Under the pieces are notes generated by a model, which had not been told where the DNA came from, did no database searches, and saw only the letters and a program-made list of their open reading frames with translations. From NCBI RefSeq assembly GCF_030691015.1, contig NZ_JAUYFF010000010.1, positions 124,001-188,000 of the forward strand: a stretch of DNA of 64,000 bases, written 5' to 3'. The translations under genes and the position numbers were made by a program. Origin of the DNA: Sulfuricurvum sp. GTDB lineage: Bacteria > Campylobacterota > Campylobacteria > Campylobacterales > Sulfurimonadaceae. Of this stretch, positions 8,835 through 14,427 are shown one piece after another; position 1 is the stretch's first letter; each line of letters starts with the position of its first letter.

Positions 8835-9371
8835 TTAATAAGCGTTTCGGAGTACCACACCGATAAAAATAGCGGTAACACCCAACACGATATTCACGGG
8901 AACCATGGTTTTCGCGATAAGGCCGAGCATCTCTTTGGCTTTTTCAAGATTTCCCACTTTTAGTGCTTGCTCTGCTTTTGCACGACGCCACATCATAGCG
9001 CCTAAATTCAATGCCATAATGAGCCAAATTGCCTCTTTGATATGAACGGTGTTGTAGATACTCATCGCATACTCATCGATTACATTACCCATGGGATCCA
9101 TCGCCGCCGCGCGGAATCCAAGACCGACCGCCATCAAAACCGCTGTAATAATAAGAATGATAACAAACGGCATTACGATAGCGAAAAGACGTTTGAGAGT
9201 ATGCGCCGCACGCTCTAGTCGTAGTTTCGGATCACTGATGAGTGCTAATGACTGATGGGTTGCAAATCGGATGGCAATCATCCCTCCAACCCAGATAACA
9301 GCACTTATAACATGTAAAAAAACGATCAATGTACGATGATGGGCAAACGTTTCGACTAAAAATTCTTTCAT
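8835..9371 (-). CDS. CopD-like four-helix membrane protein
   Basis: The 178-residue protein has four predicted membrane helices (about 14-35, 62-88, 108-127 and 150-175). A conserved-looking FLHVISAVIWVGGMIAIRF segment resembles the histidine-bearing first helix of CopD/DUF2269-type proteins. Histidines at HVI, in HTLKR and in HIKEAIW could bind metal or haem. The function is uncertain. Its ATG overlaps the alaS stop by one base (TAATG), indicating translational coupling. Confidence 0.6.
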   Translation of the reverse strand: MKEFLVETFAHHRTLIVFLHVISAVIWVGGMIAIRFATHQSLALISDPKLRLERAAHTLKRLFAIVMPFVIILIITAVLMAVGLGFRAAAMDPMGNVIDEYAMSIYNTVHIKEAIWLIMALNLGAMMWRRAKAEQALKVGNLEKAKEMLGLIAKTMVPVNIVLGVTAIFIGVVLRNAY

Positions 9372-11923
9372 TACGAGAGTTCCTTCGTCACATACGCCAA
9401 GGCCGCCTCTTTGGCTTCACCTAATTTGCTCGCATCTTTTCCCCCCGCTTGAGCGAAGTCAGGACGTCCGCCGCCCCCGCCGCCGAGGATCGGAGCGATT
9501 GCTTTGATCCAATCCCCCGCTTTAACATTAGTGTTTTTAGCACCCGCCGCGAGGAGTACTTTATCCTCTTTGATTTGGAATAAAATCACCGCAACCGAGT
9601 CATGTTGATTTTTAAGCTCATCGATACGCTCTTTGATATCGCCCGCCGTGAGTTCGCTGACAACGACCGCCGTATTCCCTATCATCGTGACGGAAAGTTC
9701 CTCTTTAGCTGAAGAAGCCAATGTGCTCATTTCAGTTTTTAGGGTTTTTACTTGCTCTTTAAGACGCTCGATTCCCGCCAATACATCTCGATTTTTAACC
9801 GATGCTTCCACCTCTTCGAGAAGGTGACGCTGTTGTTTAAAGAGGTTGTAGGCGGCATTACCGCACACCGCTTCGATACGTCGAACTCCCGCACTGACCC
9901 CGCTCTCTTTGACGATGACAAACGTCCCGATGGTTGCCGTATTATCGACGTGGATACCGCCGCAGAACTCGACTGAAGCCGTTCCGAAATTGACGACGCG
10001 TACCGTATCGCCGTATTTCTCACCGAATTGTGCTTTCGCCCCGCTTTTTTTCGCTTCGTCGATGCTCATTTCACGCGTCATCCCCTCAAGTGCATGGAAG
10101 ACATGATAATTCACTCTCTCTTCTACGAGAGCGATCTCTTCGTGAGACATCGCTTTAGGATGTGAAAAGTCAAAACGGAGACGGTTGTGTTCGACCAATG
10201 ACCCAGCTTGGGAAATATGTTCGCCCAGTTGCTCATACAACGCTGCGTGCAACAAGTGGGTTGCCGAGTGGTGTTTCGCAACCTCGTTACGTGATGGATC
10301 GACAATCGCCTCTACCGTATCGCCAACGCTCAATGTCGCTTTGGTTTCAATGTGGGAAAGATTCAACCCATGGAATTTTTTCGTTTCGGTTACAACCGCT
10401 CTCTCTCCAAGAGTTCCGATATCGCCACATTGTCCGCCGCTCTCCGCATAAAACGGAGTCTCTTCCAAAAGAACCCATCCGCTCTGGTGAGCGTGCAACT
10501 GATCAACGCGCTCAAAATTCTCACCCAAAAGGGCTTGGATTTTGACCGGAGCTTTCGTATACGCGTATCCGATAAAGGAGTTGACACCGAACGTCTCAAG
10601 AAGGGTTTTAAAATCCCCCTCAACATGGGCATCACCTGAGCCTTTCCACGCCGCTTTCGCCCGTTTTCGCTGCTCTGACATCAATGTCTCAAACGTCTCT
10701 ACATCGAGGGAAAGATGTTTCTCTTTCAACATATCTTCGGTCAAATCAAGAGGGAATCCGAAGGTATCGTAAAGTTTAAACGCCACTTCGCCGCTAAAGG
10801 TCTCTTTGGTGTTTTTCAACTCTTCGTTAAAGAGTTCAATCCCCGATGCAATCGTTTTGAAAAAGCGTTCCTCTTCGAGCATAATCTGTTCTTTTAATAC
10901 GCTCAGTTTTTCCACGATGTACGGGTATTGTTTCCCCATCAGTTCAACGACGGTATCGGCAACCTCAAACATAAACGGTTTGGTAAATCCGAGCAAGTAA
11001 CCGTGACGAACCGCACGACGCAAGATTCGGCGAAGAACGTATCCGCGCCCTTCGTTGGAGAAGTTTGTCCCCTGTGCGAGGAGGAACGTAACGGTGCGAA
11101 TATGGTCAGCGATAACACGATACGACGCTCCGCTCGCGTATACATACGGTTGTCCGATAAGGGCTTCGACTTTACGGATGATCGGCATAAAGAGGGTTGA
11201 ATCGTAGTTGCTCAATGCCCCCTCTAATACTGCGGTTGCGCGCTCTAATCCCATCCCCGTATCGATGGACGGTTTCGGAAGCGGTTTCAACTCACCCTTG
11301 GCATTACGCTCATATTGCATAAATACGAGGTTCCAGATTTCGAGGAATCGATCCCCGTCTCCCCCCATATAATCCTCAGGGCCGTTGAAATGTTCCGCAC
11401 CCTGATCGACGAAGATTTCCGAACACGGTCCGCACGGTCCGGTATCTCCCATCTGCCAAAAATTGTCTTTATCTCCCAAACGCATAATGCGATCCGCCGA
11501 AATATGCTTTTTCCAAATCTCTTCGGCTTCATCATCGCTCTCATGGACGGTTACCCAGAGTTTATCGACAGGGAGTTTCATCACTTCCGTGACAAACTCC
11601 CACGCATGGGCGATCGCTTCCTCTTTGAAATAATCCCCGAAACTAAAGTTCCCGAGCATCTCGAAAAACGTGTGGTGACGCGCCGTATGACCGACGTTCT
11701 CCAAGTCATTGTGTTTCCCACCCGCACGAATACACGTCTGTGCACTGGTCGCACGAGGATTTGAGGGGATAGGGATATCGCCCGTAAAAATTGACTTAAA
11801 CGGAACCATACCGGCATTGGTGAAAAGGAGGGTTGCATCATCAGGGACGAGAGGAGAACTCGGAACCCGAGCGTGTTGTTTTGATTCAAAAAAGGCCAAA
11901 AAGGCTTCGCGGACATCCATCAT
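9371..11923 (-). CDS. alaS: Alanyl-tRNA synthetase
   Basis: A class II aminoacyl-tRNA synthetase charging tRNA-Ala, about 850 residues. It has an N-terminal catalytic domain (motif 2 region with [18 protein letters not shown]), an editing domain with the zinc-type motif HHSATHLLH and the CGGIHV cysteine/histidine site, and a C-terminal oligomerisation/C-Ala domain ending in [15 protein letters not shown]. Three closely spaced ATG codons lie at 11929, 11923 and 11920. The GAGAG ribosome binding site fits 11923 best (7-base spacing); 11929 is too close to it. Confidence 0.96.
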
Positions 11924-12081
11924 AGTCATACTCTCATATTGGATAAAATTGCGCGATTATAGCGAAGAAGGAGTTAAATAAAGAATAAGGGGTTTATTTG
12001 CGAGTGATTAATATCTATTCAGCCTCGTTTTGTCACTTTTTTACTAAACTTTTTAGATTAGATTTCTCGGTATATTGCTTC

Positions 12082-12110
12082 CGTTCGTGGTGAGCCTGTC
12101 GAACCATGAA
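12082..12110. repeat. REP-like repeat, left half-copy
   Basis: The segment GTGAGCCTGTCGAACCATGA matches, with few changes, the palindromic repeat on the other side of the PH-domain gene (12667-12724). Only one arm is present here. It has the GAGC(C/T)TGTCGAA core seen in many dispersed bacterial REP-type elements. Confidence 0.6.
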
Positions 12111-12125
12111 TCTAAAAGCGAAAAG

Positions 12126-12611
12126 TCAGCTTTTACTTTTTTTTACAATATCCTCAATACGAAGCTTAATATTCTGTGCATCTTTAACATTAGGAATTGT
12201 TACCCAAGCACCATATGCGAAAACTCTTATGGTCGCATAATTTCGATACTTTCCTAACAAAGTTGTCGTCACTTCAATGTTTTCAACCGTTTTTAAACTA
12301 AGGCTATCTTCGAAAGTTGTAAGAATACCTTGTTTGACAGATAACGTCTCATTGTTTAGAGAAACTGCCACAAAGTATGGTTCGAGAATTTTTCCGCAAC
12401 TTTTGAGTACTAAAATAGCTGGTAAAACAACTAAGCTAAGAAGCATATCTGGAGTAAATTTACTACCTATCAAGTATTTTCCAATTTCATTAAATATAAG
12501 ATACATCAAAGACAAACCAAATAATTGAAGTAAAATATCTACTATTGCTTCAATTGCACATGGATGTGTAGCTACATCTAATTTATTTTCTGAATTTGAA
12601 TAATTTACCAA
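12126..12611 (-). CDS. PH-domain (bPH2/DUF304-like) membrane protein
   Basis: The 161-residue protein has two hydrophobic segments (about 22-42 and 55-72), followed by a small beta-rich domain with VSLNNETLSVKQGILTTFEDSLSLKTVENIEV. This is the pattern of membrane-flanked bacterial PH domains (YdbS/DUF304). The role is unknown. The gene is visibly richer in A+T than alaS and leuA, stands alone with its own spacers, and is bracketed by REP-like palindromes, which suggests an accessory insertion between two housekeeping genes. Confidence 0.65.
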   Translation of the reverse strand: MVNYSNSENKLDVATHPCAIEAIVDILLQLFGLSLMYLIFNEIGKYLIGSKFTPDMLLSLVVLPAILVLKSCGKILEPYFVAVSLNNETLSVKQGILTTFEDSLSLKTVENIEVTTTLLGKYRNYATIRVFAYGAWVTIPNVKDAQNIKLRIEDIVKKSKS

Positions 12612-12666
12612 TGTGACTCCTTATAACTATCAATATGCATAAAAGAGAATAGATTTATCATTAATT

Positions 12667-12724
12667 CGTTTGTGGCGAGCTTGTCGAACCATGAACACCT
12701 TCGACAAGCTCAGGGCGAACGGGG
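12667..12724. repeat. REP-like imperfect palindrome, right copy
   Basis: One arm, CGTTTGTGGCGAGCTTGTCG (12667 onward), is followed after a short loop by its inverted partner, TTCGACAAGCTCAGGGCGAA. The inner GAGCTTGTCGAA/TTCGACAAGCTC pairing is perfect over 12 bp; the outer part is imperfect. It shares its core with the half-copy at 12082-12110. Confidence 0.65.
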
Positions 12725-12728
12725 ATAG

Positions 12729-12749
12729 ATTCCGTGTCGAGCACGGAAT
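12729..12749. repeat. Short perfect palindrome downstream of leuA
   Basis: ATTCCGTG (12729-12736) and CACGGAAT (12742-12749) form an 8-bp stem with a TCGAG loop, 10 bases beyond the leuA stop. It could act as a weak leuA terminator or belong to the adjacent REP-like element. No T tract follows on the minus strand. Confidence 0.5.
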
Positions 12750-12759
12750 GACTGGAGAG

Positions 12760-14427
12760 TTACGAAAATGCTCGATTCAATGCACTAAACATCGCTTTGA
12801 TCGATGCTACGGTAATATCATTATCGCATCCGACACCGAAAAATTTCTCCAAACTCTCTGTCTGAATCTCGATATAGGCGACCGCTTCGGCGCTGGAAAG
12901 CTCTCCGCGTGAATGTTCCGAGTAGGAGAGGATTTTAAAGCTGTGGGAATACTCCACCATCAATGCATTTTTGCACGCATCGATCGGGCCATTCCCCTGC
13001 CCTTCGCTTCGGATCGCTTTGCCGTTGTGGGTGTATTCCAACACACATTTGGCGGAGTGCTCTTTTGCACTCTCGGAGATCACCGAATAATCGACGAACT
13101 CGATGTCATGCGGTTCACCGAAATAGGTTTTCTCGAAAATGTCTAAAATCTCTTCGGAGGTGAGCTCACGTCCCGCTTCATCGGTAATTTTTTGAACGAT
13201 GGTTCCGATTTCAGGATGCATTTTCTTCGGCAATGAGTAGCCGAATTTATCTTCGAGGACGTAGGCTACCCCCCCTTTACCCGATTGGGAGTTGATACGA
13301 ATAATCCCCTCGTAATTACGTCCCACATCCTGCGGATCGATAGGGAGATACGGTACTTCCCAAAACGCATCGTCTTTGGCGCGCTGATACGCCAGCCCTT
13401 TGTTGATCGCATCTTGGTGGGAACCTGAAAACGCCGTATAAACAAGCTCACCCACATACGGATGACGCTCATGGGTTTTCATATCGGTACACTCTTCGAC
13501 GACACGAACGACACTCTCCAAATCGCTGAAATCGAGTTCAGGATCGACCCCTTGGGTGTACATGTTGAGCGCTAGGGTGATGATATCGACATTTCCGGTA
13601 CGTTCGCCGTTAGAGAGAAGCGTCCCCTCGACACGATCCGCTCCCGCGAGCAATGCCAACTCTGTCGCGGCAACCGATGTTCCACGGTCATTGTGGGTAT
13701 GGGTCGAGATCAACACGTGTTCACGGTTGGTGAGATGACCGGCCATCCACTCGATCTGATCGGCATAGACGTTCGGTGTCGCCATCTCGACGGTAGCGGG
13801 GAGGTTAATCACAACCTTGCGATTCGCGCTAATTTCCCAACGATCGGTTACGGCGTTACAGATACGGGCGGCAAATTCGAGCTCTGTCCCCGTAAAACTC
13901 TCAGGAGAATATTCGAGCATGATCTCGCCATCGTGTTTAGCGGCGCGGGCTTTGACCATATCGACACCCTCTAACGCCAACGCGATAATCTCATCTTGCT
14001 CTTTGCCGAAGACGATTTTACGTTGGGCTACCGAGGTAGAGTTATACAAATGGACAATCGCTTTTTTCACCCCTGCTAATGCCTCGAACGTTTTGTCTAT
14101 CAAATGTTCTCGCGCTTGGACGAGGACTTGTACCGTGACATCATCGGGAATCAATTTTTGCTCTACAAGAGTGCGTAAAAAATCGAACTCCACTTTCGAC
14201 GCGGAGGGGAATCCCACCTCGATATTTTTAAATCCGAGTTTCAGCAAGAGGGTGAAGAGAGAGAGTTTTTGATCCAAATTCATCGGGGTGATCAACGCTT
14301 GGTTTCCGTCGCGAAGATCGACACTGCACCAGATAGGTGCGTGCGTGATGGTTTTAGATGGCCAAATACGATTTGGCAAATCAACTTGAGGATACGGGCG
14401 GTATTTGCCTGCGAATGCGTGTTTCAT
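12760..14427 (-). CDS. leuA: 2-isopropylmalate synthase (long type)
   Basis: This enzyme catalyses the first committed step of leucine synthesis, condensing 2-oxoisovalerate with acetyl-CoA. The 555-residue protein shows the DLRDGNQ metal/substrate motif (37-43) and HTHNDRG (243-249) of the HMGL-like TIM barrel, then a C-terminal LeuA allosteric domain (about 430-550) for leucine feedback. The PYPQVDLPNRIWPSK N-terminus and length match the LeuA2 type typical of actinobacteria and fungi, rather than the shorter E. coli form. No leuB, leuC or leuD is nearby. Confidence 0.93.
   Translation of the reverse strand: MKHAFAGKYRPYPQVDLPNRIWPSKTITHAPIWCSVDLRDGNQALITPMNLDQKLSLFTLLLKLGFKNIEVGFPSASKVEFDFLRTLVEQKLIPDDVTVQVLVQAREHLIDKTFEALAGVKKAIVHLYNSTSVAQRKIVFGKEQDEIIALALEGVDMVKARAAKHDGEIMLEYSPESFTGTELEFAARICNAVTDRWEISANRKVVINLPATVEMATPNVYADQIEWMAGHLTNREHVLISTHTHNDRGTSVAATELALLAGADRVEGTLLSNGERTGNVDIITLALNMYTQGVDPELDFSDLESVVRVVEECTDMKTHERHPYVGELVYTAFSGSHQDAINKGLAYQRAKDDAFWEVPYLPIDPQDVGRNYEGIIRINSQSGKGGVAYVLEDKFGYSLPKKMHPEIGTIVQKITDEAGRELTSEEILDIFEKTYFGEPHDIEFVDYSVISESAKEHSAKCVLEYTHNGKAIRSEGQGNGPIDACKNALMVEYSHSFKILSYSEHSRGELSSAEAVAYIEIQTESLEKFFGVGCDNDITVASIKAMFSALNRAFS

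Follow-up and report, generated by a model that had tools for sequence, protein, structure and literature searches.

The alaS-leuA interval and its palindromes

The window, meaning the whole stretch of 64,000 nucleotides that was analysed, is part of a 2.33-Mb Sulfuricurvum genome in 19 contigs (G000). Three genes of its minus strand form the locus: leuA (2-isopropylmalate synthase; 12760-14427, a 555-aa ORF), an AT-rich gene (12126-12611) and alaS (alanyl-tRNA synthetase; 9371-11929, an 852-aa ORF). The names alaS and leuA were taken from a preliminary description made from the sequence only; tblastn placed alaS next to leuA across the genus, and the C-terminal 246 aa of LeuA found a match in 39 of the 41 genus genomes, some of these matches being partial and at contig ends. 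The AT-rich gene (31% GC vs 44% for the window) comprises 161 codons with a TTG start, and a ribosome-binding site, AAGGAG, was read from the sequence upstream of it at 12617-12622. Inspection by eye of its product revealed two hydrophobic segments followed by a bPH_2-like domain. The bPH_2 profile (PF03703) matched the C-terminal half with 21.7 bits (E 2.4e-4); since this score is just below the gathering cut-off of 22, the product is termed PH-like. A single-sequence AlphaFold model gave no usable fold (mean pLDDT 45.6).

The preliminary description had reported repeats with a common core around this gene in the alaS-leuA interval, and both the repeats and the core common to the units were recovered. 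A single unit lies on the plus strand at 12081-12111, 14 nt downstream of the stop codon of the PH-like gene, with a TGGT/ACCA stem and the loop GAGCCTGTCGA at 12092-12102. The repeat had been described as a half-copy (12082-12110), but it is by itself a complete hairpin unit; the consensus of the family folds with a 9-bp stem and an 11-nt loop. Likewise, the supposed full palindrome at 12667-12724, which begins 35 nt past the leuA stop codon, is a repeat, but it consists of two slightly decayed units placed face to face with overlapping arms: a TGGC/ACCA unit on the plus strand (loop 12677-12687) and a CCCT unit on the minus strand (loop 12701-12711). Computed repeats comprised a direct repeat of 29 nt (12082-12110 and 12667-12695, 90% identical) and an inverted repeat of 12 nt (12677-12688 and 12700-12711, 100% identical). 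The inverted pair folds as DNA at -15.0 kcal/mol (z -3.8), and none of 200 shuffled sequences folded as well. A second small palindrome, ATTCCGTG-CTCGA-CACGGAAT at 12729-12749 on the minus strand, is present as claimed, 10 nt past the leuA stop codon (8-bp stem, 5-nt loop, z -4.5), but belongs to another repeat type, which resembles the CGTC/dRS3 kind.

With at most one mismatch, the core GAGCYTGTCGAA occurs four times in the window, whereas 0.58 occurrences are expected and four were reached in 1 of 100 shuffles. All three exact copies in the window are at the alaS-leuA locus. The preliminary description had proposed a genome-wide count and had taken a lack of further copies as grounds against its reading; the whole genome contained four exact cores, the three at the locus and one on another contig (reversed control, one).

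Anatomy, spread and placement of the repeat unit

The unit is a hairpin of non-coding DNA. CCGTTCG forms its 5' tag, the stem is self-complementary but varies in sequence, and the loop, GAGC-YT-GTCGA, is constant; GAGC and GTCGA presumably may form G.A pairs with an extrahelical T. The core was found in 39 of the 41 genus genomes, with 0-62 copies in each against 0-6 in reversed controls. Stem pairing was scored in the 146 units with a YT loop among 167 units from 248 genus loci that had not been fetched by stem; units with other loops were left out. Stem positions 2, 3 and 4 formed Watson-Crick pairs in 93, 91 and 93% of these 146 units, whereas the shuffled maxima were 61, 60 and 62%. Since nearly all genus units are of two types (CCCT/AGGG 67, TGGT/ACCA 55), two fixed palindromes explain this matching as well as covariation does. 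That the stems are exchangeable is suggested by other genomes and by a designed test on viral contigs in which stem halves were swapped. The former set comprised 236 YT units of 273 at loci carrying an exact 24-mer; although it is biased to TGGT, because these loci were fetched with a TGGT stem, it contained the further matched stems TCCT/AGGA (21), CACT/AGTG (3), TGCT/AGCA (3) and CCGT/ACGG (2). In the viral contigs, the matched stems CCCT/AGGG and TGGT/ACCA were found in at least 120 and in 97 stretches, respectively, whereas the swapped combinations were found in 1 and 7. Swapping the stem halves thus provides a test by which the family can be defined and searched for. A search of Rfam returned one match of 17.7 bits, which was taken as chance in view of the gathering threshold of 97.

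The columns of CCGTTCG are conserved at 0.76-1.0 in both main genus types, as expected for a tag. The 3' side is less conserved, chiefly in CCCT units, and CCGTTCG is kept in these units even where the 3' side is unpaired. In the two main types of viral-contig units the tag is weak (0.37-0.64 per column). Instead of the two bases between GAGC and GTCGA, three may be present, or longer stretches able to fold again. At sites with three free bases, the stems paired at all four positions in 27 of 68 cases, counted over all loci then collected, and the reversed control motif, with all loop lengths taken together, gave 7 fully paired stems in 2,227 sites. An earlier scan with three free loop bases, a length unsuited to this family, had yielded 20 distinct sites, mostly unpaired, and was replaced by a two-base scan. 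A closely similar insert of 38 nt, which occupies exactly the GAGC-GTCGA interval, was observed in G000, in G023 and four times in G003, in both stem types. The copy in G000 lies on contig C2 (locus L001, 1422-1522) and the others are at L027, L496, L499, L522 and L524.

Units frequently form pairs, and these join unlike partners. All 51 distinct inward pairs in the genus combine two different stems, 46 of them CCCT with TGGT, and only one of the 52 adjacent pairs is tandem. Among the loci fetched by the 24-mer, and hence with a TGGT stem, 4 of 56 inward pairs were equal-stemmed and 33 of 89 adjacent pairs were not inward.

The family extends beyond the genus and the phylum. A longer pattern was detected in 13 of 397 phylum genomes, which belong to 4 of 68 genera; the control pattern matched nowhere. 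The exact 24-mer occurred in at least 120 stretches of the genome collection. Among the 80 matches listed, the titles named about eight phyla (Proteobacteria, Deltaproteobacteria, Sulfuricurvum, Nitrospira, Chloroflexi, Fibrobacteres, Tectomicrobia and one Chitinophaga), and every title outside Proteobacteria, including both of Sulfuricurvum, was a metagenome-assembled genome, so that misbinning could inflate this list of phyla. Plasmid matches comprised 28 records, including Sphingobium, Moraxella and Polaromonas. Units were also common in IMG/VR contigs (L278-L484), where many neighbours look like prophage genes. A phage origin was considered and rejected, as nothing in the named phage collection matched, although units are numerous in IMG/VR contigs. 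Text searches of an open-access library gave no paper that was recognisable as a description of the repeat.

Placement was mapped in one genome, G003, with genes called simply as ORFs. Of its 40 clusters in 37 loci, 23 were located in codirectional, 10 in convergent and 2 in divergent gaps and 5 within an ORF; thus, 35 of 40 lay outside called ORFs. Distances and orientations were taken from 32 of these 35 rows, two divergent and one convergent being left out. The median distance from the unit edge to a stop codon was 16 nt (41 distances) and that to the next start 68 nt (23 distances). At codirectional sites, the unit was closer to the stop codon in 17 of 23 cases, and convergent and divergent gaps with and without units differed in their proportions (Fisher p 0.008). 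In codirectional pairs the TGGT unit came first after the stop codon in 10 of 14 cases, which leaves room for an effect of orientation; single units at such sites lay on the strand of the gene in 4 of 9. The units at alaS-leuA agree with this placement, lying 14 nt past the stop codon of the PH-like gene and 35 nt past that of leuA. Since units in G003 generally occur 3' of genes, the bracketing of a single gene is expected whenever both genes concerned carry one, and no insertion is needed. The bracketing of the PH-like gene is thus mainly a consequence of this preference for 3' ends.

Gain and loss at single sites were evaluated by comparing 17 of 30 loci fetched per site. At the first site of G003, the pair was present in G003 and G027, with the two units in opposite order, and absent from the other 15 loci; G000 and G002 have a gap of 2 nt there. 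At the second site, the pair was present in G003 only. The term REP-like, used in the preliminary description, is appropriate in that the repeats are hairpins and a given site may carry them in one relative and lack them in another. In relatives, other repeat types were observed at a G003 intergenic site compared here (L534 and L535), so certain junctions between genes seem to draw several families of hairpins.

A hot-spot spacer with small genes

The alaS-leuA spacer of Sulfuricurvum, which spans 11930-12759 in the window, is a hot spot that acquires small gene cassettes. It was surveyed in 35 of the 41 genus genomes and resolved in 32, and its length ranged from 89 to 3481 nt. Several of the shortest alleles contain little besides a hairpin near the leuA stop codon; by a simple test, a hairpin of the general form of 12729-12749 lies within 60 nt of that stop codon in 14 of the 32 resolved genomes. 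Hairpins of the form ATTCCCGCnnnnGCGGGAAT numbered 0-147 matches per genus genome (for example in G034, G013, G019 and G023) when counted by strand, so that most palindromes were scored on both strands. Their number was not clearly correlated with that of the core (rho 0.23, p 0.14). The long spacer alleles contain what we take, from translations read by eye, to be pairs of the BrnT/BrnA and DUF4160/DUF2442 kinds, along with further small ORFs. The preliminary description had suggested a comparison of this spacing in close relatives, and the spacers of relatives indeed differ, most of them being without the PH-like gene. A unit was present in 8 of 11 spacers of at least 600 nt but in only 1 of 21 shorter ones (Fisher p 0.0001). 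This excess may indicate a link, but more 3' ends are available in a long spacer, and kinship among the 32 species makes the p value too favourable. Cargo-size spacers without a unit occur in G021, G025 and G029, and one short spacer carries a unit; repeats without cargo and cargo without repeats are thus both seen.

The PH-like gene was correctly called accessory. Of the 41 genus genomes, two carry it, namely G000 and G017, both in this spacer, and in the phylum sample any match was limited to 3 of 397 genomes including G000 itself; the other two were a match with 40% identity in G410 and a weak, partial match in G185. The gene is therefore not present in all relatives; had gene and repeats been common to all of them at this locus, this would have spoken against the preliminary reading. 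Between G000 and G017, the gene shows a dS of 0.19 and a dN of 0.061. For the adjoining stretches of leuA and alaS, dS is higher, at 0.50 and 0.52. Synonymous differences amounted to about 17 in 101 sites in the PH-like gene and 91 in 247 in the flanks (Fisher p 0.0002). In a leuA tree of 30 of the 41 genus genomes, G017 groups with G022 and G023 (support 88), and G000 stands apart with weak support. Vertical inheritance, considered in view of a flank-like nucleotide identity of 92%, was dropped because of the difference in dS between 0.19 and 0.50-0.52. Since the dS of the gene is below that of its flanks, these substitution rates indicate that it most likely moved between the lineages after their split, although the AT-rich nature of the gene may, through its codons or its base composition, account for part of the low dS. 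Thus, the PH-like membrane gene was probably acquired horizontally.

In G000 and G017 the homologous block is delimited by a unit at either end, and the sequence outside is unlike; the left unit, on the side of the PH-like gene, has the inverted orientation in G017. No target-site duplication and no second locus for the gene were found. The association of the gene with the units rests on these two genomes, and carriage of the gene into the spacer by REPs is possible.

Mobilising enzyme and alternative explanations

The usual explanation of REPs is a dedicated transposase of the same genome, and the preliminary description proposed a search for a REP-associated Y1 transposase. A profile search for Y1_Tnp detected none in G000. 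Y1 matches were found in 19 of the 41 genus genomes (in 14 at E<1e-10), but none of 30 Y1 loci, each of about 3 kb or less, contained the core, and the copy number of the core was not correlated with the Y1 count in the genus (rho 0.20, p 0.21). G014 carries 56 cores and has no Y1 match in a genome that is 93% complete and fragmented. Many of the Y1 genes (L037-L047, L055-L059, L065) have on both sides, by eye, terminal repeats of the kind of GGTGTCAGGCACC or GGGTCAGGCG in place of REPs, and many of the 21 Y1 loci inspected out of the 30 have terminal repeats with GTCAG or its complement, also by eye. They resemble the Y1 genes flanked by terminal inverted repeats of PMC3733652. The NHYH and YIExNP motifs of the genus Y1 proteins make them look like subclass 2.1, a subclass with which PMC6006769 reported finding no REPs. 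A gene recurring beside the units was sought in 365 loci. Protein families numbered 42 in the vicinity of units and 44 at a distance, and 12 of each were judged by eye; the 12 largest unit-near families included no recognisable transposase, and many of those judged look like prophage genes. Units lay inside ORFs of at least 80 aa in 341 of 723 cases, a count that is uninformative because spurious ORFs in GC-rich DNA are included. Several findings speak against the view that the gene was inserted by the mediation of REP-type elements: G000 has no Y1 match, the 30 Y1 loci of the genus lack the core, repeats and cargo are separable, and units in G003 lie 3' of genes generally. In favour of this view are the unit-to-unit block of G000 and G017, which is younger than the flanking genes, and the excess of units in long spacers, and the preliminary reading is partly supported.

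Chance or base composition as the source of the repeats is refuted and keeps a negligible probability; the small number of exact cores in G000 would suit it, but not the genus counts of up to 62, far above the reversed controls, the identity of the 24-mer across phyla or the matching stems. It is improbable that the hairpins are RNA-level elements, namely 3'-UTR stabilisers or terminators selected for the preceding genes. The short median distance past stop codons, the strong folding of the pair as DNA and the frequent leading position of the TGGT unit would agree with this function, whereas no terminator-like site was found in 11900-12800, the pair at the site shared by G003 and G027 has opposite orders in the two genomes, single units are on the strand of the gene in fewer than half of the codirectional sites, and occupancy is patchy among relatives. 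The classical explanation, in which a Y1 transposase (RAYT) since lost from G000 moved the units as its REPs, has about as small a chance of being correct and is in part refuted. The size of the unit, its hairpin, the inverted pairs and the 3' placement are REP-like and clear Y1 matches occur in a third of the genus genomes (14/41), but the GTAG-type tag is absent, the Y1 loci have other terminal repeats instead of the core, G014 combines many cores with no Y1 match, and the motifs of the genus Y1 proteins point to the subclass without REPs.

It is unlikely, with a chance somewhat above that of the classical explanation, that the two units are the ends of a mobile cassette that brought the PH-like gene into the spacer as a REP-bounded composite insertion. 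This would account for a homologous block that spans from unit to unit, for a gene younger than its flanks and for the excess of units in long spacers. Against it are the long spacers without units and the short one with a unit, the lack of a target-site duplication or a second locus in what was searched, the inverted left unit, and the inflation of the spacer statistics by additional 3' ends and by kinship. We regard it as probable, though by no means certain, that two things coincide in one hot spot, the uptake of cassettes and the presence of REP-like elements at the 3' ends of leuA and the PH-like gene. In this coincidence of cassette uptake and 3'-end elements, the units would move as folded single strands and be read by a trans-acting enzyme that recognises the constant loop, similarly to what is described for TnpA-REP and IS200/IS605; they would persist where they are least harmful, just past stop codons, and recombination between scattered units may exchange cassettes such as the PH-like gene across lineages. 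The failure to find a mobilising enzyme in G000, at the 30 Y1 loci or among the neighbour families speaks against this explanation, as does the fact that the units in G000 are few and partly decayed, their current activity being unproved. A fixed loop, matching stem halves and identical 24-mers in genomes assigned to distant phyla with no linked transposase raise the question of what copies the unit and how it travels.

Comparison with known repeat families

As a REP-like family, the repeats are unusual in both their design and their reach. They fit the broad sense of a REP as a short extragenic palindrome, often in inverted pairs. With the GTAG REPs, REPINs and BIMEs associated with RAYTs, as presented in PMC3733652, PMC2817692 and PMC8266576, they share imperfect palindromes of 20-40 nt, a one-sided tag, an extragenic position mostly 3' of genes, and inverted pairs often made of unlike units. 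Unlike those REPs, the Sulfuricurvum units have no GTAG or GTGG-like tag but the flank consensus CCGTTCG. Their loop is constant while their stems are exchangeable, their copy number is low to moderate, and identical 24-mers occur in several phyla. A RAYT flanked by two units was found neither in G000 nor at the 30 genus Y1 loci. The copy number of REPs is usually above 100 per genome according to PMC2817692, whereas the exact cores number 4 in G000 and 0-62 in the genus, decayed copies being uncounted. A composite transposon would have defined ends with a target duplication and would move to several loci; the block observed here ends at units in two genomes, but at one locus and with no duplication seen.

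The hairpins of TnpA-REP and IS200/IS605, according to PMC8266576, are recognised as single strands via the loop, a bulge or unpaired bases. The units differ from the subterminal hairpins of IS200/IS605 in having no element ends and no linked tnpA. The CGTC REPs (dRS3, RPE) occur, according to PMC3733652, in several phyla as outside-tagged dimers, some of them heterodimers, with no dedicated transposase known. The Sulfuricurvum units share these traits but differ from CGTC REPs in loop and tag, the CGTC tag being absent. In that source, CGTC REPs are defined by a CGTC, TGTC or CCTC tag, an 8-9 bp stem starting with A/T pairs and a 4-5 nt loop. The 8-bp stem and 5-nt loop of the hairpin at 12729-12749 fit this definition, and its tag is AGTC here and CGTC in G017. 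We tentatively suggest, at slightly less than even confidence, that the units may represent a third large REP superfamily, with an internal GAGC ... GTCGA motif, freely exchangeable stems, optional second hairpins in the loop and horizontal spread across phyla, moved by a putative enzyme for which the loop of the single-stranded DNA would be the recognition site.
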